The notes beneath the pieces are model-generated. The model had not been told where the DNA came from. It did not search any database and saw only the letters and a program-made list of their open reading frames with translations. 64,000 bases of DNA from an uncultured Opitutia bacterium. GTDB lineage: Bacteria > Verrucomicrobiota > Verrucomicrobiia > Opitutales > Opitutaceae. Shown here piece by piece: positions 26,730-34,592 of this stretch (positions within the stretch are counted from its first letter, which is position 1; each line of letters starts with the position of its first letter). The stretch is taken from assembly GCA_903900845.1 (NCBI GenBank), contig CAIUOU010000167.1:1-64000 (forward strand), written 5' to 3'. Both the position numbers and the translations under genes were made by a program.

Positions 26730-27389
26730 TCAGGGCAGGACGCGCACCTTGATGTTGCGATAGAGCACGCGGCTCTCCGGGTCGTGTCCCTGGATGGCGA
26801 AAGTGCCGCTGGAAAGCATGCGGCCCTTCATGTTGGGCGGCGGCGCGGGCGGGGTCGGCTCGGTGAAGTCGATGATCTGCTTCCCGTTCACGAAAGTCTG
26901 GATGCGTTTGCCCTCCACGCGCACGACCATCGTGTACCACTCGCCGTCCTTGGCCGGCGCCTCGGCGTTGTCCTTGATGGCGTACAAACCGGCGCCCTTC
27001 TTCACATCCTTGTGGGTGTTGTTGACCTGCACCTCGTACCCTTTGTCGGGCCAGCCGGTCTCCTGGTAGGCGGTGTGGATGTAGACCCCGGAGTTCGCCT
27101 TGGGGAACGTCTTGATCTCGAGGCTGAGCTCGAAGTTGCGGAAGTTGGCGCCGTTCACCGGGCCGGTGTAAAAGAGGTGCGAGCGTTTGCCGAAGACGAC
27201 GAGCTCGCCGTTCTGCACGGAAAACGTCCCTTGGTTCTCGCTGGATTTCCAGCCGTTGAGGGATTTGCCGTCGAACAGGAGCTGCCAGCCGGAGGATTTC
27301 TCGGCGGACGACAGCGTGTTGCTTTCAGCGGCGGCGAGGCGCGCGCCGAGAAACAGGGCGAGGAGCGACAGGGTCAGGATGGGTTTCAT
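26730..27389 (-). CDS. secreted DUF1080 (3-keto-disaccharide hydrolase-like) protein
   Basis: A 219-residue exported protein with a single DUF1080 domain. A signal peptide covers about 1-21 (ILTLSLLALFLGARLAAA). The concanavalin-like fold starts with WQLLFDGKSLNGWKSS and includes ELSLEIKTFPKANSGVYIHT, YEVQVNNTH and WYTMVVRVEGKRI, all typical of the family. Characterised DUF1080 proteins act on 3-keto-glycosides, so this is probably a periplasmic lyase or hydrolase of oxidised sugars. The start is the ATG at 27389; the longer open frame upstream adds no signal peptide. It is a monocistronic gene with a strong terminator, 3' to vapC. Confidence 0.9.
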   Translation of the reverse strand: MKPILTLSLLALFLGARLAAAESNTLSSAEKSSGWQLLFDGKSLNGWKSSENQGTFSVQNGELVVFGKRSHLFYTGPVNGANFRNFELSLEIKTFPKANSGVYIHTAYQETGWPDKGYEVQVNNTHKDVKKGAGLYAIKDNAEAPAKDGEWYTMVVRVEGKRIQTFVNGKQIIDFTEPTPPAPPPNMKGRMLSSGTFAIQGHDPESRVLYRNIKVRVLP

Positions 27390-28154: not shown

Positions 28155-29534
28155 ATGTCCGCCCGCCTCCTCCTCGCCTCCCTACTCCTTTTCACCGCGG
28201 CCCGCGCCGCCCAGCCGCCCGCCGGCTTCACGCCGTTGTTCAACGGCAAGGACCTCGCCGGCTGGCGCGGCGGCAGCACGTTCGACCACCGCAAGCTGCT
28301 CGCGATGCCCGCGGCGGAGCGCGAGGCGCAGATCGCGAAATGGTCCGCGACCATGATCGCGCTCAAGGACGGCCAGCCCCACTGGCGCGCCGAGGGCGGC
28401 GTGCTGGTCAACGACGGCCAGGGCGACTACGCCACGACGGAGAAGGATTACGGTGACTTCGAGCTGCTGCTCGACTTCAAGCTCGCGCCTGGCGCCGACT
28501 CGGGCGTGTACCTCCGCGGTGTGCCGCAGGTGCAGATCTGGGACTTCACGATGCCCGACCCGAAGGGCCACGGTTACGCGCTCGGATCCGGCGGACTATG
28601 GAACAACACAAAGGGAACGCCGGGACGCGATCCGCTGGTGAAGGCCGACCAGCCGGTCGGCGAGTGGAATTCCCTGCGCGTCCTCATGGTGGGCAGCCGC
28701 GTGAGCGTGTGGCTCAACCAGAAGATGGTCGTCGACCACGCGATCCTCGAGAATTTCTACGACAAAAACGACAAGAAGCTTAAGCCCGAGGAGCGCCGCC
28801 CCGTGCCGGCGCGCGGGCCGATCCAGCTGCAGACCCACGGCGGGGCGACCCATTGGCGCAACGTCTACATCCGCGAGATCGGCGGCGACGAGGCCAACCG
28901 CCTCCTCGCCGGCCGCGGCGGGGAAGGCTTCAAGCCGATCTTCAACGGCCGCGACTTCACCGGCTGGAAGATCGAGGAGAAGGGCGGCAACAAAGGCGCC
29001 GGCGACGTGATGGAGGTGAAGGACGGCGCGATGGTCTGGCGCAACGGCAAGGGCGGCACCCCCTACTGGCACGAGGAGCTCGCTGACTTTCAGGCGCGCC
29101 TGATGTTCCGCATCCCACCCGGCGGCAACAACGGCCTCGCCATCCGCTATCCTGGCAAGGGCAACGCCGCCTACGACGGCGTGACCGAGCTGCAGATCAT
29201 CGACGAGAACTACTACGCCGCGCGGAAACAGCCCGAGAAGAAGCTCGATCCCCGGCAATACCACGGCTCGGCCTACGGCATGGTGCCCGCGGCGCGCGGA
29301 TACCTGCGCCCCTCCGACCAGTGGAATTTCCAGGAGGTCACCGTGAAGGGCTCCCAACTCCGCGTGGAGCTCAACGGCAGCGTCATTCTGGACGCCGACG
29401 TCTCCAAGGTCGACCTCGCGACGGTGATGGGGAAGACAGCCCACCCCGGCAAGGATCGCCGGGCCGGCTACTTCGGGCTCGCCGGTCACAGCGACCCGGT
29501 CGAGTTCAAGGATCTGTCGATCAAGCGTCTCTGA
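28155..29534 (+). CDS. secreted protein with two tandem DUF1080 domains
   Basis: A 459-residue exported protein with a signal peptide (about 1-19) and two DUF1080 domains. The first, about 24-243, starts FTPLFNGKDLAGW; the second, about 258-458, starts FKPIFNGRDFTGW. Each keeps the family motifs: DFELLLDFKLAPGADSGVYL and VQIWDF in the first, ADFQARLMFRIPPGGNNGLAI and TELQIID in the second. Family members cleave or rearrange 3-keto-glycosides. A fused pair suggests two successive or paired steps, such as elimination then hydration, or a lectin-like role for one copy. It is followed after two bases by a TIM-barrel gene and then by a Gfo/Idh gene. Confidence 0.9.
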   Translation: MSARLLLASLLLFTAARAAQPPAGFTPLFNGKDLAGWRGGSTFDHRKLLAMPAAEREAQIAKWSATMIALKDGQPHWRAEGGVLVNDGQGDYATTEKDYGDFELLLDFKLAPGADSGVYLRGVPQVQIWDFTMPDPKGHGYALGSGGLWNNTKGTPGRDPLVKADQPVGEWNSLRVLMVGSRVSVWLNQKMVVDHAILENFYDKNDKKLKPEERRPVPARGPIQLQTHGGATHWRNVYIREIGGDEANRLLAGRGGEGFKPIFNGRDFTGWKIEEKGGNKGAGDVMEVKDGAMVWRNGKGGTPYWHEELADFQARLMFRIPPGGNNGLAIRYPGKGNAAYDGVTELQIIDENYYAARKQPEKKLDPRQYHGSAYGMVPAARGYLRPSDQWNFQEVTVKGSQLRVELNGSVILDADVSKVDLATVMGKTAHPGKDRRAGYFGLAGHSDPVEFKDLSIKRL

Positions 29535-29536
29535 CC

Positions 29537-30439
29537 ATGCTGCGCCGCGAATTCGTCCGTTCCTCCGCCGCGCTCGCCGCCTTCGCCCCGCTGGCCGTGG
29601 GCGCCGCCGAAAAGCCGAAGCGCCGGCTGCGCAAGGGATATATGTTCGGCGGGCTCCGGCCCAACGCCAAGAACGGCGGCTCGCTCCTCGATCGATTCAA
29701 GCTGCTGAAGGACGCCGGCTTCGACGGCGTCGAGGTCAGCGGCGCGATGGACCAGAAAGAGGTTCTCGCCGCCCGCGACGCCGCCGGTCTGGAAATCCCG
29801 AGCGTCGTCATCCACAACCATTGGACACACCCGATCACCTCCCCCAACCCGGGCGCGAGGGAGATAGGGCTCGAGGGCCTCCGGCAAGGGCTGCGCGACG
29901 CGAAGGCCTACGGCGCCAGCTCCGTGCTCTTCGTGCCGGCGGTGGTCAACCAGGACACCTCTTACGCCGACGCCTACACCCGTGCGGTCGAGGGAATCCG
30001 CCAGGCGATCCCGCTGGCGGAGGAACTCGGTGTCGCGATTGCGATCGAGAACGTGTGGAACAAGTTCCTCCTGAGCCCGCTCGAGGCGGCGGCCTTCGTC
30101 GACCAGTTCAAGACCCCCGCGGTGAAGTGGCACTTTGACGTTGGTAACGTGGTCGATAGCGGCTGGCCCGAACAGTGGATCCGGATCCTCGGTTCGCGGA
30201 TCGTGAAAATCCACGTGAAGGAATACAGCCGCAAGCTGCGCGACAAGGAGGGCCCCTACGCCGGCTTCCGCACGGAGCTGTTCTCCGGCGACAGCAACTG
30301 GCCCGCCGTGGTATCCGCGCTCGATGCGGTCGGCTATTCCGGCTGGCTCATCTCCGAGCAATACCGCACCCCGGGGCTTTCCGACCCCGAGTGGCTGAAG
30401 AACCTCGCCGGCCAGATGGACCGAATCATCGCCCTTTGA
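29537..30439 (+). CDS. xylose-isomerase-like TIM-barrel sugar phosphate isomerase/epimerase family protein
   Basis: A 300-residue protein of the AP endonuclease 2/xylose-isomerase-like TIM-barrel family with a Tat-like N-terminus (RREFVRSS, 3-10, followed by AALAAFAPLAVGAA). Barrel strands and metal ligands appear as GFDGVEVSG, VVIHNHWTHP, SVLFVPAVV, VAIAIENVWNKF (Glu), VKWHFDVGNVV (Asp, Asn), VKIHVKEY and LISEQY (Glu). Members act as isomerases, epimerases or hydro-lyases of keto-sugars. Its location two bases after the tandem DUF1080 gene and 19 before the oxidoreductase makes it a likely partner in oxidised-sugar metabolism outside the cytoplasm. The exact reaction is unknown. Confidence 0.88.
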   Translation: MLRREFVRSSAALAAFAPLAVGAAEKPKRRLRKGYMFGGLRPNAKNGGSLLDRFKLLKDAGFDGVEVSGAMDQKEVLAARDAAGLEIPSVVIHNHWTHPITSPNPGAREIGLEGLRQGLRDAKAYGASSVLFVPAVVNQDTSYADAYTRAVEGIRQAIPLAEELGVAIAIENVWNKFLLSPLEAAAFVDQFKTPAVKWHFDVGNVVDSGWPEQWIRILGSRIVKIHVKEYSRKLRDKEGPYAGFRTELFSGDSNWPAVVSALDAVGYSGWLISEQYRTPGLSDPEWLKNLAGQMDRIIAL

Positions 30440-30458
30440 GAATCATCCCCCGAACATC

Positions 30459-31754
30459 ATGAACACAAACAAACCCGCCGTCGCCCGCCGCCAATTCCTT
30501 CGGACCTCCACCGGCCTGGCCGCCGGCGCCGCGATCACCGCGGCCACTCCCCGCTTCCTCACCGCCGCGGAGCGCGCCCGCTCCATCGGCGCCAACTCCC
30601 GCATCCGCATCGCCCAGATCGGCTGTGGCAGCCGCGGTGTCGGCGCACACATGTCCGGCATCCAGAAGCACGCGGCCGCGACAAACATCGAGGTCGTGGC
30701 CGTCGCCGACACCTGGAGCCAGGCCCGCGAGAAGGCAAAGGCTCGTGCGAAGGAGTGGTTCGGCAGCGACGCCAAGGCGTTCTCGTCCTACCGCGACGTG
30801 CTCGCGATGAAAGACGTCGACGCCGTGATGATCGCGTCCCCCGACCATCTGCACACGCTGCACCTCGAGGCCGCCGCCAACGCGGGCAAGCACATCTACG
30901 TCGAGAAGCCGCTGGCGACGGAGTTCGATAAGCTGCTGAAGGCTTACGACGCCGCCAAGGCCGCGCAGGGTCGCGGCAGCATCATCCAAGTCGGCACCCA
31001 GCTGCGCAGCCTTCCCGGCGTCGCCGGCGCCCGCGAGCTGGTGAAGAGCGGGATCCTCGGCAAGATCACGCGCGTCGACGAGACCCGTAACGCCGAGAAA
31101 CCCTATTGGTACAGTTACCTCGGCCGCGAGGTGAAGGAGTCGGAAGTGGACTGGAAGGAGTTCCTCAACGACCGGAAGCCCCGGGCGTTCGACGCCCGCC
31201 AGTACGCCGCATGGTACGGCTACTACGAATTCTGCCAGGGTCCCGTGCCCCAATGGGGCGCGCACTTCCTCGACCTGATGCACTACGTCACCGACTGCGG
31301 CCTCCCCGAGTCCTGCATGTGCATCGGTGGAGTGACCTATTGGAAGGACGAGAACAAGTTCACCACGCCCGACAACGTGATGGCCACGTGGATGTACCCC
31401 GACGGCATGGTCGTCACCAGTTCCAACAATTTCGGCAACAGCTCGGGCAACCTGCGGAAATTCTTCGGCGACAAGGGCACCCTCGACGTCGGCAACTGGA
31501 ACGTCCCGACCTACAGCGCCGAGGGCGGCCCGAAGCGCGACGGCAAAATCCGCGGTAAGCAGGAAGTCGCTCCCGTCGAGCGGCCCGACCACTTCCTCAA
31601 CTGGCTCCAGTGCATGCGCGACAACAAGACGCCGCATGCCTCGATCGACGCCGGCTACCAGCACGCCGTCGCGGTCCTGATGGCTGTCATCTCGTACGAT
31701 ACCGGCCGTAAGACGATGTACGACCGTGCCAATCGGCGGATCACGACCGCCTGA
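30459..31754 (+). CDS. Tat-exported Gfo/Idh/MocA family oxidoreductase
   Basis: A 431-residue NAD(P)-dependent oxidoreductase. The twin-arginine signal is ARRQFLRTSTGL (9-20) followed by an Ala-rich hydrophobic segment. The nucleotide-binding motif IGCGSRGVGAH is canonical, and ASPDHLHTLHLEAA and VEKPLATE are the family strings. The substrate domain includes PQWGAHFLDLMHYVTDCG, typical of this export subfamily. It is the last gene of a three-gene operon with a tandem DUF1080 protein and a TIM-barrel protein, and a strong terminator follows 24 bases later. In the glycoside-oxidation pathway such an enzyme converts a sugar C3 hydroxyl to a ketone; here that role is inferred from neighbours. Confidence 0.93.
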   Translation: MNTNKPAVARRQFLRTSTGLAAGAAITAATPRFLTAAERARSIGANSRIRIAQIGCGSRGVGAHMSGIQKHAAATNIEVVAVADTWSQAREKAKARAKEWFGSDAKAFSSYRDVLAMKDVDAVMIASPDHLHTLHLEAAANAGKHIYVEKPLATEFDKLLKAYDAAKAAQGRGSIIQVGTQLRSLPGVAGARELVKSGILGKITRVDETRNAEKPYWYSYLGREVKESEVDWKEFLNDRKPRAFDARQYAAWYGYYEFCQGPVPQWGAHFLDLMHYVTDCGLPESCMCIGGVTYWKDENKFTTPDNVMATWMYPDGMVVTSSNNFGNSSGNLRKFFGDKGTLDVGNWNVPTYSAEGGPKRDGKIRGKQEVAPVERPDHFLNWLQCMRDNKTPHASIDAGYQHAVAVLMAVISYDTGRKTMYDRANRRITTA

Positions 31755-31777: not shown

Positions 31778-31813
31778 GGCCCTCGTCGCCCCAAGGCGCG
31801 AGGGCCTTTTTTT
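31778..31813 (+). terminator. Rho-independent terminator of the tandem DUF1080 operon
   Basis: GGCCCTCG (31778-31785) pairs with CGAGGGCC (31799-31806), with a further short internal hairpin in the loop, and is followed by seven T residues (31807-31813). Confidence 0.88.
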
Positions 31814-31854: not shown

Positions 31855-33198
31855 TCAGCGCTTCTTCTTGCCACCCTTCTTGCCGGCCCCAGCCGGAGCG
31901 TCGGGCGCGCTGGGCTCGGCCTGCTCCGCGCTCCATTTGTCCCATAGCGCCTGCAGTTCGCGGACCCGGGCGGGCTGGACGGCGGCGAGGTCCCGGGTCT
32001 CGCCGATGTCCTTTGAAAGATCGTACAACTCGGGCTTTCCACTTCCGCCCTTCGAGACGACCAGCTTCAGGTCGCCGTGGCGCACGGCCCATTGCGGACC
32101 GTACCGCCAGAAGAGCGTCTGGTGCGGCCGGGCGGGATTGGCGCCGGCCACGAAGGGCGCGAGGTCCACGCCGTCGAGCCGCCAGGAGGCTTCGGGTTTA
32201 CCTCCCGCGGCGGCGACCACCGTCGGGAGGACATCGAGGTTGAGCACGGGGAAATCGTAGACCTTGCCGGCGGGCCAGCGCCCCTTCCATCGCGCCACAA
32301 AAGGCACGCGCGGCCCGCCCTCGAAGGTGGTCATCTTGAAGCCCCGCAGCGCACCGTTGCCGGAGGTCGTGCTTTGCGTCGGCCCGCCATTGTCGGCGAT
32401 GAAGAAAACGATCGTGTTATCCTCCTGTCCAAGGGCCTTCACCTTTCCCATCACGCGGCCGACCGCGTCGTCCATTGAAGAGAGCATCGCGGCGAAGATC
32501 CGGCGCTTCTCATCCGTGATGCCGGAAAAACGATCGAGGTACTTCTTCGGCGCCTGGAGCGGGGCGTGCTGGGCGTTGAACGGGAGATAGAGGAACCACG
32601 GCCGGTCACGGCTGCGCTCGATCCAATCCACCGCCCGTTCGGCATAGGCATCGGTCGTGTAAAACGCGGGGTCCGCGACGGGCCGGACGTCGTCGGAGAT
32701 GCGCGAGTCGACGAAGTTCGTCGGATGGAAGAAGGGCGCGTTGGCGAGGGTGCCGTAGAACTCGTCGAAGCCGCGCCGCGTGGGCCGGTACTCCAGGCCG
32801 CCGCCGAGGTGCCACTTGCCAATGCAGGCCGTCGCGTAACCGAGGGAACGGAGCCGGTCGGCAATGGTCGTCTGGTCGAGGCGGAGGCCGGACCGGTTGG
32901 CGACGCTGTTGAACTCATGACCGAATCGCGTCGGGTAACGCCCGGTGAGCAGGCCGGCGCGCGACGGGCTGCAATACGTGGCGGCGACATAGCCGTTGGT
33001 GAACCGCACCCCTTCACGGGCAATGGCGTCAATGTGAGGTGTCGGGATCTGCGGGTTGCCTTGGCAGCCGAGTTCACCCCAGCCGAGGTCGTCGGCGAAA
33101 AAGATCACGACATTCGGCCGGGCGGCGAAGGAAACGGACGGAGGAAGGAGGCCGAGGAGGGCCACGAGGAGCGTGAGCAGGCGGGCACGGGGCATCAT
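31855..33198 (-). CDS. secreted sulfatase (S1 family)
   Basis: A formylglycine-dependent sulfatase of 447 aa with a signal peptide (about 1-25). FFADDLGWGELGCQG supplies the two metal aspartates. The signature is YCSPSRAGLLTGRYP with Cys76 as the formylglycine precursor. IGKWHLGG and FIADNGGPT are the remaining catalytic and metal motifs. The C-terminal tail is Ala/Pro then Gly/Lys-rich (KKGGKKKR), a disordered end similar in style to that of the sulfatase at 11 kb. It is convergent with the DUF1080 operon and divergent from a sialidase-like gene, and is probably periplasmic. Confidence 0.94.
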   Translation of the reverse strand: MMPRARLLTLLVALLGLLPPSVSFAARPNVVIFFADDLGWGELGCQGNPQIPTPHIDAIAREGVRFTNGYVAATYCSPSRAGLLTGRYPTRFGHEFNSVANRSGLRLDQTTIADRLRSLGYATACIGKWHLGGGLEYRPTRRGFDEFYGTLANAPFFHPTNFVDSRISDDVRPVADPAFYTTDAYAERAVDWIERSRDRPWFLYLPFNAQHAPLQAPKKYLDRFSGITDEKRRIFAAMLSSMDDAVGRVMGKVKALGQEDNTIVFFIADNGGPTQSTTSGNGALRGFKMTTFEGGPRVPFVARWKGRWPAGKVYDFPVLNLDVLPTVVAAAGGKPEASWRLDGVDLAPFVAGANPARPHQTLFWRYGPQWAVRHGDLKLVVSKGGSGKPELYDLSKDIGETRDLAAVQPARVRELQALWDKWSAEQAEPSAPDAPAGAGKKGGKKKR

Positions 33199-33323
33199 GG
33201 TTATTGGGGGCGGCCGGATACAGCGGTGAAAACGGCCCGGAGGCGAGACGTGAGGCGGCGGTTGACTCCGCTCCGTCCCATGACCCGGTTTGCCACCGCG
33301 GCGGCGTTTACCATGCTCCTGCC

Positions 33324-34592
33324 ATGCCCCGCTCCCGTCCTACCCTGCCCGGCGGCGTCGCGCTGCTCGCACTGCTAGCACTGCTCGCCCTTGGTCCGCG
33401 GACCGACGCCGCGCCGCTGCACCAGAGCAACATCCTCTTCGCGCCCGAGTCATGGCACAACCACGCCTCCTGTGTGGTGGAACTGCCGAACGGCGACCTC
33501 CTCGCGTGCTGGTTCCACGGCTCCGGCGAGCGCACCGCCGACGACGTGAAGGTGGAGGGCGCGCGCCTACGCCGGGGCGCCAAGGAATGGGGCCCGCGCT
33601 TCAGCCTGGCGGACACCCCGGGTTTCCCCGACTGCAACCCGGCCATGTTCCTGGATCCGCGAGGCCGGCTCTGGCTCATCTGGATCACGATCCAGTCGAA
33701 CCGCTGGGAATCGTCGCTGCTCAAGTTTCGGCGCTCGGACGATTTCCTGGGTGACGGCCCGCCCCGCTGGCACGAAAGCGGAGTGATCCATCTCAAGCCG
33801 CCCGAGGAATTCGCCGCAGCCGCCCTCGCGCACTATGACCGCGTCGAGCCGGTCCGCCTAGCGGCGGCGGCCGACGAGGAAGCGCGCGGCAAGGTACGGG
33901 AGGAGTTCGCGACCTACCGCTCGCTCGCACGGGACCGCCTCTCGCAACGCCTCGGGTGGATGCCGCGCGCGCATCCGTTCGTGCTGGAGGACCGGCGGAT
34001 CATCCTGCCGCTCTACTCGGACGGTTTTGATTTCTCGCTGATGGCACTGAGTGACGATGGCGGGGAAACCTGGCGCACCAGCACGCCGGTCATCGGCGAG
34101 GGCAACATCCAGCCCAGCATCGTGCGCCGGCGCGACGGGAGCCTCTACACGCTGATGCGCGACAACGGACCGCCGCCGAAGCGCCTCCTGCAGTCCGAGT
34201 CGCGAGACGGCGGGGAATCCTGGTCGGCCGCGACCGACAGCGCGGTCCCGAATCCAGGCTCCGGCGCCGAGATCATCGGCCTGCGCGACGGCCTTTGGGC
34301 GTTGATCTCGAACGACACCGAAACGGGGCGCCACCGGCTCACGGTGAAGTTCTCGGACGACGAGGGCCGCACTTGGCGCTGGCAACGCGCGCTGGAGGAG
34401 GATCCCGCCGGGTCGTCGGGCGGGCGCTATCATTATCCCAGCCTGATCGAGGCGGCCGACGGGACGCTGCACGCGACGTACAGCCATCACGCGAACGCTG
34501 CGGCGGAGGCCGGCGGCGCCCAGCGCAAGACGATCAAGCACGCGCATTTCAACCGGGAGTGGGTCAAAGCGGGCGGCGCGACCGCCCGCTGA
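33324..34592 (+). CDS. sialidase-like (BNR/Asp-box) secreted protein
   Basis: A 422-residue exported six-bladed beta-propeller protein. A signal peptide covers about 1-29 (ALLALLALLALGPRTDA). Three Asp boxes fit S-x-D-x-G-x-x-W: SDDGGETW (about 243), SRDGGESW (about 292) and SDDEGRTW (about 343). VVELPNGDLLACWFHGSGE and NIQPSIVRRRDGSL are typical of the bacterial exo-alpha-sialidase-like group. This is the subfamily found beside sulfatases in Planctomycetota and Verrucomicrobiota; true sialic acid activity is not assured. The start is the ATG at 33324 because it gives a good signal peptide. It is divergent from the sulfatase gene. Confidence 0.87.
   Translation: MPRSRPTLPGGVALLALLALLALGPRTDAAPLHQSNILFAPESWHNHASCVVELPNGDLLACWFHGSGERTADDVKVEGARLRRGAKEWGPRFSLADTPGFPDCNPAMFLDPRGRLWLIWITIQSNRWESSLLKFRRSDDFLGDGPPRWHESGVIHLKPPEEFAAAALAHYDRVEPVRLAAAADEEARGKVREEFATYRSLARDRLSQRLGWMPRAHPFVLEDRRIILPLYSDGFDFSLMALSDDGGETWRTSTPVIGEGNIQPSIVRRRDGSLYTLMRDNGPPPKRLLQSESRDGGESWSAATDSAVPNPGSGAEIIGLRDGLWALISNDTETGRHRLTVKFSDDEGRTWRWQRALEEDPAGSSGGRYHYPSLIEAADGTLHATYSHHANAAAEAGGAQRKTIKHAHFNREWVKAGGATAR

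Follow-up and report, generated by a model that had tools for sequence, protein, structure and literature searches.

The operon formed by dufT, tim and gfo is predicted from its sequence to encode a periplasmic, redox-neutral, non-hydrolytic glycosidase system, a reading to which we assign a probability of roughly 0.6. It occupies positions 28155-31754 on the forward strand of the analysed window (the whole 64,000-nucleotide stretch, from an uncultured Opitutia bacterium), where the open reading frame list places the three genes one after another with gaps of 2 bp and 19 bp (Table 1). These open reading frames, the gaps and the Pfam matches bear out the compact operon of three tightly packed genes described in the initial annotation, and the strong terminator that it placed at the operon end was confirmed as a stable hairpin (z = -2.9). 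A search for the same gene order elsewhere, which had been suggested as a check, found dufT-tim-gfo in 13 other genomes of the same genus, a conservation far above chance expectation. The dufS gene, missed by the initial annotation, is also syntenic within the genus and is a possible partner outside the operon. Genes for a sulfatase (31855-33198) and a BNR protein (33204-34592) were rejected as operon partners because their synteny extends no further than the closest one or two genomes.

Table 1 Features of the dufT-tim-gfo operon and its surroundings (positions in the window)
Feature	Position	Strand	Description
dufS	26730..27389	-	Divergent single-domain secreted DUF1080 protein; start set to the Met that precedes the signal peptide
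dufT	28155..29534	+	Secreted tandem DUF1080 (PF06439) protein, 459 aa
D1 (Gln type)	28224..28874	+	PF06439, 129 bits alone; invariant PQVQIWD ... SGxLxNN ... QxH
Codon Gln125 (D1)	28527..28529	+	Aligned with Glu139 of 3OSD (BT2157)
Codon His228 (D1)	28836..28838	+	Equivalent of BT2157 His275 (hydration), by alignment
D2 (Glu type)	28926..29525	+	PF06439, 111 bits alone; invariant ExQxxD ... QxHGSxY ... GH
Codon Glu345 (D2)	29187..29189	+	Glu of the E-x-Q-x-x-D motif, by alignment
Codon His445 (D2)	29487..29489	+	Equivalent of BT2157 His275, by alignment
tim	29537..30439	+	TIM barrel with Tat signal, PF01261 (sugar isomerase/epimerase-like), 300 aa
gfo	30459..31754	+	Tat-signal Gfo/Idh/MocA oxidoreductase, 431 aa
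Intrinsic terminator	31778..31813	+	12-bp GC stem (31778-31806) and U7

PF06439 (DUF1080, 3-keto-disaccharide hydrolase) was matched by two stretches of DufT (236 bits for the whole protein), each of which alone scored above the curated cut-off of 26.8, and the two domains share only 25% identity. An AlphaFold model of DufT (mean pLDDT 79) had as its top PDB match the tandem protein BT3469 of Bacteroides thetaiotaomicron (4JQT; E 1e-25 over 499 columns), followed by 3-keto-glycoside eliminase/hydratases of the BT2157 type. PDB titles of DUF1080 relatives name a 3-keto-glycoside eliminase/hydratase (8RR2, 9FBE) or a 3-keto-2-hydroxy-glucal hydratase (8TDA, 8V31). With BT2157 (3OSD, 8TDA, 8RR2, 9FBE), DufT shares the PF06439 fold, the hydration His in both domains and the Glu motif in D2; BT2157 differs in being a single domain, with about 20% identity, and in having Glu where D1 has Gln. 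The Glu of the E-x-Q-x-x-D motif, which is common to the solved single-domain DUF1080 members aligned, was present in 73/73 D2 members, whereas each of the 72 D1 members that could be read has Gln in place of the family Glu. The equivalent of His275 was kept in 72 D1 and 73 D2 members, and the B. thetaiotaomicron H275N lyase is deficient in hydration (PMC13273386); the 9FBE chain carries an H-to-N change at this His. The conserved pocket expected of both domains was thus only partly found in D1, which has lost the family Glu and kept the hydration His. Since the two domains differ at this motif, and BT3469 has the same Gln-then-Glu order, D1 and D2 probably perform different jobs.

BT3469 further resembles DufT in its similar length and in keeping both His residues, and differs in that its first domain belongs to another Gln subtype (GYQFEID), with about 21% identity over the tandem. 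No published function for BT3469 was found in the literature searched; a close homologue in B. finegoldii adjoins two Tat-type Gfo genes. A protein of Parabacteroides distasonis with the arrangement HEAT-D1-D2 is 38% identical over both domains and has the PQVQIWD and ExQxxD motifs, and its locus carries two Tat-type Gfo genes upstream; unlike DufT, it has extra N-terminal HEAT repeats and its gene adjoins no TIM barrel gene. The search found 66 tandem DUF1080 loci, and tandems also occur in Bacteroidota, where they neighbour a pair of Tat-type Gfo genes within loci for glycan use (phyla other than Verrucomicrobiota were sampled through plasmid records only). The source genome has about two dozen DUF1080 copies, and none of the viral contigs searched contained a DufT relative. 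D1 and D2 are distinct subfamilies that occur fused as D1-D2, fused as D2-D1, and alone. The fusion of two different DUF1080 domains noted previously is therefore real, but the 66 loci, the Bacteroidota tandems and the solved BT3469 show that it is not unusual; what is new here is the pairing of a Gln-type with a Glu-type subfamily, recurrent in many bacteria and fused in both orders.

Two assignments of the domains were weighed. In a two-site 3-keto-glycoside lyase, D2 would carry out elimination and D1 would hydrate the glycal, the unstable intermediate being passed within one chain. We consider this exact division of labour unlikely; if it held, the D1/D2 partnership would be general, because the same subfamilies are fused in both orders in Verrucomicrobiota and Parabacteroides and BT3469 is a parallel Gln/Glu pair. 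It is rather doubtful, too, that D2 alone is catalytic for both elimination and hydration, with D1 a catalytically inactive module that shares the jelly-roll fold and serves carbohydrate binding or structure. The loss of the Glu throughout the readable D1 members, the closeness of the fold to galectin, LamG and CBM66 domains, and the lower scores of D1 than D2 against BT2157-type chains would fit such a module, whereas a near-invariant polar set over 72 members (R121, Q125, Q127, D130, N150/N151 and the hydration His, H228) and the existence of D1 as a stand-alone secreted protein would be odd for a mere helper.

Sequence features give good support for the export of the three gene products. 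DufT begins with a Sec-like hydrophobic leader, the N-terminal twin-arginine motif R-R-x-F was present in 20/21 TIM barrel homologues and 14/14 Gfo homologues, and TatC is encoded in the source genome, so that a conserved motif and a tat system coincide for both Tim and Gfo. The earlier suggestion that the whole pathway is exported is consistent with these signals; its description as unusual is not, as Tat-type Gfo/Idh partners are the rule beside tandem DUF1080 loci.

Gfo matched the PF01408 Rossmann domain with 65 bits (64.8), above the Pfam cut-off, and the EKP lysine was conserved (E149-K150-P151 in 13/13 readable homologues). The motif Q265-W-G-A-H269 was found in the same proportion (13/13), with H269 kept and Gln265 replacing the usual Asp. 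Gfo therefore lacks the Asp that begins the D-x-x-x-H dyad in 8TDF and many relatives (8TDF/8TDH being the nearest solved relatives of Gfo). This Asp/His dyad varies across the Gfo superfamily, and its absence does not exclude membership. Against NF058561, the NCBIfam model for the BT_2158 family glycoside 3-dehydrogenase, Gfo scored 93.5 bits with an equivalog cut-off of 750, and its assignment as a BT_2158 equivalog was rejected in favour of a relative outside that family.

Tim matched PF01261 with 128 bits, and its putative metal ligands (E171, D201, H226, E274) are invariant among homologues. It resembles the beta-eliminases AtOGE and PuCGE in being a Mn-type TIM barrel in the same kind of pathway, and AtOGE has its catalytic His two residues after the strand-5 metal ligand (His132/His134) (PMC10628242). 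Tim has Val173 at this +2 position, within E171-N172-V173 (invariant in 20/20 readable homologues; the position was assigned by motif, not superposition), and it was rejected as an OGE/CGE beta-eliminase. The best sequence and fold matches were ketose 3-epimerases, with the 3-keto-glucoside 4-epimerase YcjR also matched. Together with the four putative ligands and the Val in place of the AtOGE/CGE base His, these matches raise the possibility, which we hold tentatively and at somewhat less than even odds, that Tim is a 3-keto-glycoside C4 (or C2) epimerase/isomerase like E. coli YcjR and that the role of the operon goes beyond cleaving common glycans to the remodelling or scavenging of unusual sugars. 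Against this, the match is at about 20% identity only, and PF01261 also includes the 3-keto-glycoside eliminases/hydratases LgdB1 and LgdB2 (PMC10066097), with a role of this kind proposed for AtHYD (PMC10628242).

In the proposed glycosidase system, Gfo would be exported already folded and carrying its nicotinamide cofactor, and would oxidise the glycosyl C3-OH. The acidified C2-H would then be removed and the glycosidic bond would leave by beta-elimination to give a 2-hydroxy-3-keto-glycal. The likely site is D2, in which both residues of the known eliminase/hydratases, Glu and His, are retained, and the TIM barrel may assist. Water may be re-added at D2 and/or D1, where the relevant residues are present, to give a 3-keto-sugar, which Gfo would reduce, regenerating its cofactor; alternatively, the TIM barrel may first epimerise or isomerise the 3-keto-sugar. 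D1 would be a specialised second domain that acts in hydration only, accepts a different (e.g. acidic) sugar, or serves in binding.

Glycan cleavage via 3-keto intermediates, as the initial annotation had it, draws its support from homology, namely the keto-sugar DUF1080 structures and the weak BT_2158 match. The BT2156-BT2159 operon of B. thetaiotaomicron likewise combines a DUF1080 lyase with a Gfo/Idh dehydrogenase, and we take BT2156 to be a PF01261 protein, so that the third member of the kit would also be shared. Unlike the operon in the window, it has a second Gfo gene and its DUF1080 protein consists of one domain, and Gfo is distant from BT2158. A genetic role has been reported for BT2156-BT2159 (PMC12385236, PMC9007349), where either BT2156 or BT2157 can partner BT2158 (PMC12385236). 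Gfo genes adjoin 33/66 tandem DUF1080 loci, with only 61 Gfo genes in the source genome, and the accompanying members are repeatedly non-orthologous. The source genome is rich in genes for DUF1080, Gfo and PF01261 proteins, and co-occurrence is for this reason weak evidence.

Counting against a 3-keto pathway are the Gfo score (93 versus 750 bits), Gln265, the lack of the family Glu in D1, and a report of the DUF1080 enzyme THTE_1561 as an ordinary endo-glucanase (PMC10881899). Hydrolysis by that enzyme has been reported for xanthan, lichenan and beta-glucan (PMC10881899), and Gfo and Tim give weak hits to models of inositol dehydrogenase and inosose dehydratase, as might be expected if the DUF1080 proteins were ordinary glycoside hydrolases on intact polysaccharide and Gfo and the TIM barrel served a separate polyol/inositol step. 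We regard this as quite improbable, given the repeated company of non-orthologous Gfo members and the fact that the characterised solved DUF1080 relatives are keto-sugar enzymes.

It is only recently that cleavage by oxidation and elimination came to be regarded as an alternative of broad occurrence to the classical glycosidases. The operon is a compact exported set, and solved structures (4JQT, 9FBE) exist for judging the split of roles between D1 and D2. If Gln-type and Glu-type domains do divide hydration and elimination, a lyase could be distinguished from a hydratase by its sequence alone throughout DUF1080, a very large family of which most is uncharacterised.

The three open reading frames of the operon are present as predicted (see table), all on the plus strand with intergenic gaps of 2 and 19 bp, and the hairpin followed by U7 that lies 3′ of them is a genuine terminator-like structure, in keeping with the strong terminator of the initial annotation. 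A Pfam search matched dufT to PF06439 twice, tim to PF01261, and gfo to PF01408 plus C-terminal Gfo domains. Close relatives of this 4.4-Mb verrucomicrobial genome (G000) are labelled Opitutaceae or Verrucomicrobia MAGs, and the gene order of the genus is hsp90, dufS, DUF2062, dufT, with hsp90 beyond dufS/DUF2062 in several genomes.

Features of the operon, its surroundings and related loci
Feature	Position	Strand	Remarks
dufS, third DUF1080 gene	26730-27389	-	single-domain, secreted; divergent from operon; syntenic through genus
dufT, tandem DUF1080	28155-29534	+	
tim, TIM barrel	29537-30439	+	
gfo, Gfo/Idh oxidoreductase	30459-31754	+	
Gfo residues 265-269, QWGAH	31251-31265		Gln265 where the Gfo/Idh D-x-x-x-H dyad usually has Asp
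Arylsulfatase	31855-33198	-	converges on operon; adjoins it only in closest genomes
BNR/sialidase-like protein	33204-34592	+	adjoins operon only in closest genomes
HEAT repeats before D2-D1 or D1-D2 pair	L138:6866-11230; L145:3036-6935; L169:5775-9239		very large, secreted

A search for the same order in other genomes showed that dufT-tim-gfo is kept in 13 further genomes of the genus, and a variant order (dufT, another Gfo, tim) was seen at two further loci. The full tandem was found at 12 loci (56-88% identity) when one genome per species was scanned, and in most genomes of the genus among 57 relatives. A wider sample gave 66 tandem loci, 53 with the first, Gln-type domain (D1) preceding the second, Glu-type domain (D2) and 13 in the order D2-D1; a TIM barrel gene accompanies 20 of these loci, and a same-strand Gfo gene lies within about 1.6 kb at 33. 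Gfo adjacency at half of the tandem loci is far above chance, given just 61 Gfo/Idh matches in the whole of G000 (alongside 33 to PF01261 and about two dozen DUF1080 domains), though many of the loci are kin by descent.

Alignment to the 3-keto-glycoside eliminase/hydratase BT2157 (3OSD, assigned to BT2157 from its PDB title) places Gln125 of D1 and Glu345 of D2 at Glu139, and H228 and H445 at His250. The D1 motif, PQVQIWD with few conservative changes, has Gln in 72/72 readable members, and the D2 motif, ExQxxD then QxHGSxY, has Glu in 73/73; most other G000 DUF1080 proteins with a readable motif have the Glu form and a minority the Gln form. The structure 9FBE, solved with 2-hydroxy-3-keto-glucal, has H to N at the His250 position as its sole difference from wild type in the aligned stretch, and a Bacteroides thetaiotaomicron lyase H275N variant is deficient in hydration with elimination retained (PMC13273386). 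His250 of the 3OSD chain can thus be equated with BT2157 His275, on an offset of 25 from chain to full-length numbering, under the assumptions that residue 290 is the last of that chain and that BT2157 is the lyase carrying H275N.

The best fold match across the whole dufT tandem is BT3469 (4JQT), which like dufT has Gln in its first domain, Glu in its second and His in both, so that the Gln-type then Glu-type order, judged from sequence, recurs in two distinct tandem lineages. In Bacteroides finegoldii and Persicobacter, a BT3469-type tandem gene is accompanied by two Gfo genes and by a gene for FAD:protein FMN transferase, which suggests a flavin-linked redox partner. A Pseudoalteromonas megaplasmid carries a single DUF1080 gene with a GMC oxidoreductase, a gluconate 2-dehydrogenase subunit 3-like protein and two sugar phosphate isomerase/epimerases, likely a membrane-linked version of the keto-sugar route.

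At 25% identity to each other, D1 and D2 represent two separate subfamilies, both with stand-alone members (D1 at L101, for example, in G000 itself; D2 at L144). The opposite D2-D1 fusion occurs in other verrucomicrobial families, in some cases preceded by HEAT and F5/8 type C domains, and reverse-order proteins group apart from forward-order ones in per-domain trees, the D2 tree being a quick tree with weak deep forks. At L169, Parabacteroides distasonis encodes a HEAT-D1-D2 protein (38% identity, motifs as in dufT). Two Gfo genes of the Tat type lie next to it, as do an arylsulfatase and a SusD-type protein. F5/8 type C domains also precede the pair in two of the three HEAT proteins in the table, and a Tat-type Gfo gene adjoins each. 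Fusion in both orders together with separate copies, a Rosetta-stone pattern, indicates that D1 and D2 probably work together.

The putative metal ligands of tim (E171, D201, H226, E274) are all invariant; the AtOGE catalytic His was sought at +2 from E171, where tim has Val. Ketose 3-epimerases were the best match to the tim model, and YcjR, titled 3-keto-D-glucoside 4-epimerase, matched too. Levoglucosan breakdown draws both its eliminase and its hydratase from the same Pfam family (PMC10066097), so tim may act at one of several pathway steps.

For gfo, the closest solved structures are 8TDF/8TDH, whose accessions adjoin that of the DUF1080 hydratase 8TDA, and the top NCBIfam match is the BT_2158 glycoside 3-dehydrogenase, with a score far under its cut-off. 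Gln265 is invariant in every close homologue of the gfo subfamily, and some other Gfo neighbours have NWGPH, with Asn at the dyad Asp position. By analogy with glucose-fructose oxidoreductase, itself Tat-exported, we infer that gfo would recycle a bound cofactor in a self-contained manner.

Predicted export of the whole three-protein set is well supported by the Sec-like leader of dufT, the twin-arginine motif kept in 20/21 tim and 14/14 gfo homologues, and TatC encoded in G000. A periplasmic DUF1080 step has likewise been proposed for Caulobacter lactose use (PMC9007349). The fusion and the export had both been considered unusual; neither is so in itself, as 66 loci and BT3469 are likewise tandem, and a Tat motif is found in most Gfo proteins adjoining other tandem DUF1080 genes and in those beside DUF1080 in Parabacteroides, Bacteroides and Persicobacter. 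Glycan cleavage through 3-keto intermediates outside the cytoplasm is the best explanation of the operon, with a probability of roughly 0.6. What is new, and testable, is the pairing of a Gln-type with a Glu-type domain, which is seen in either order and across two phyla.
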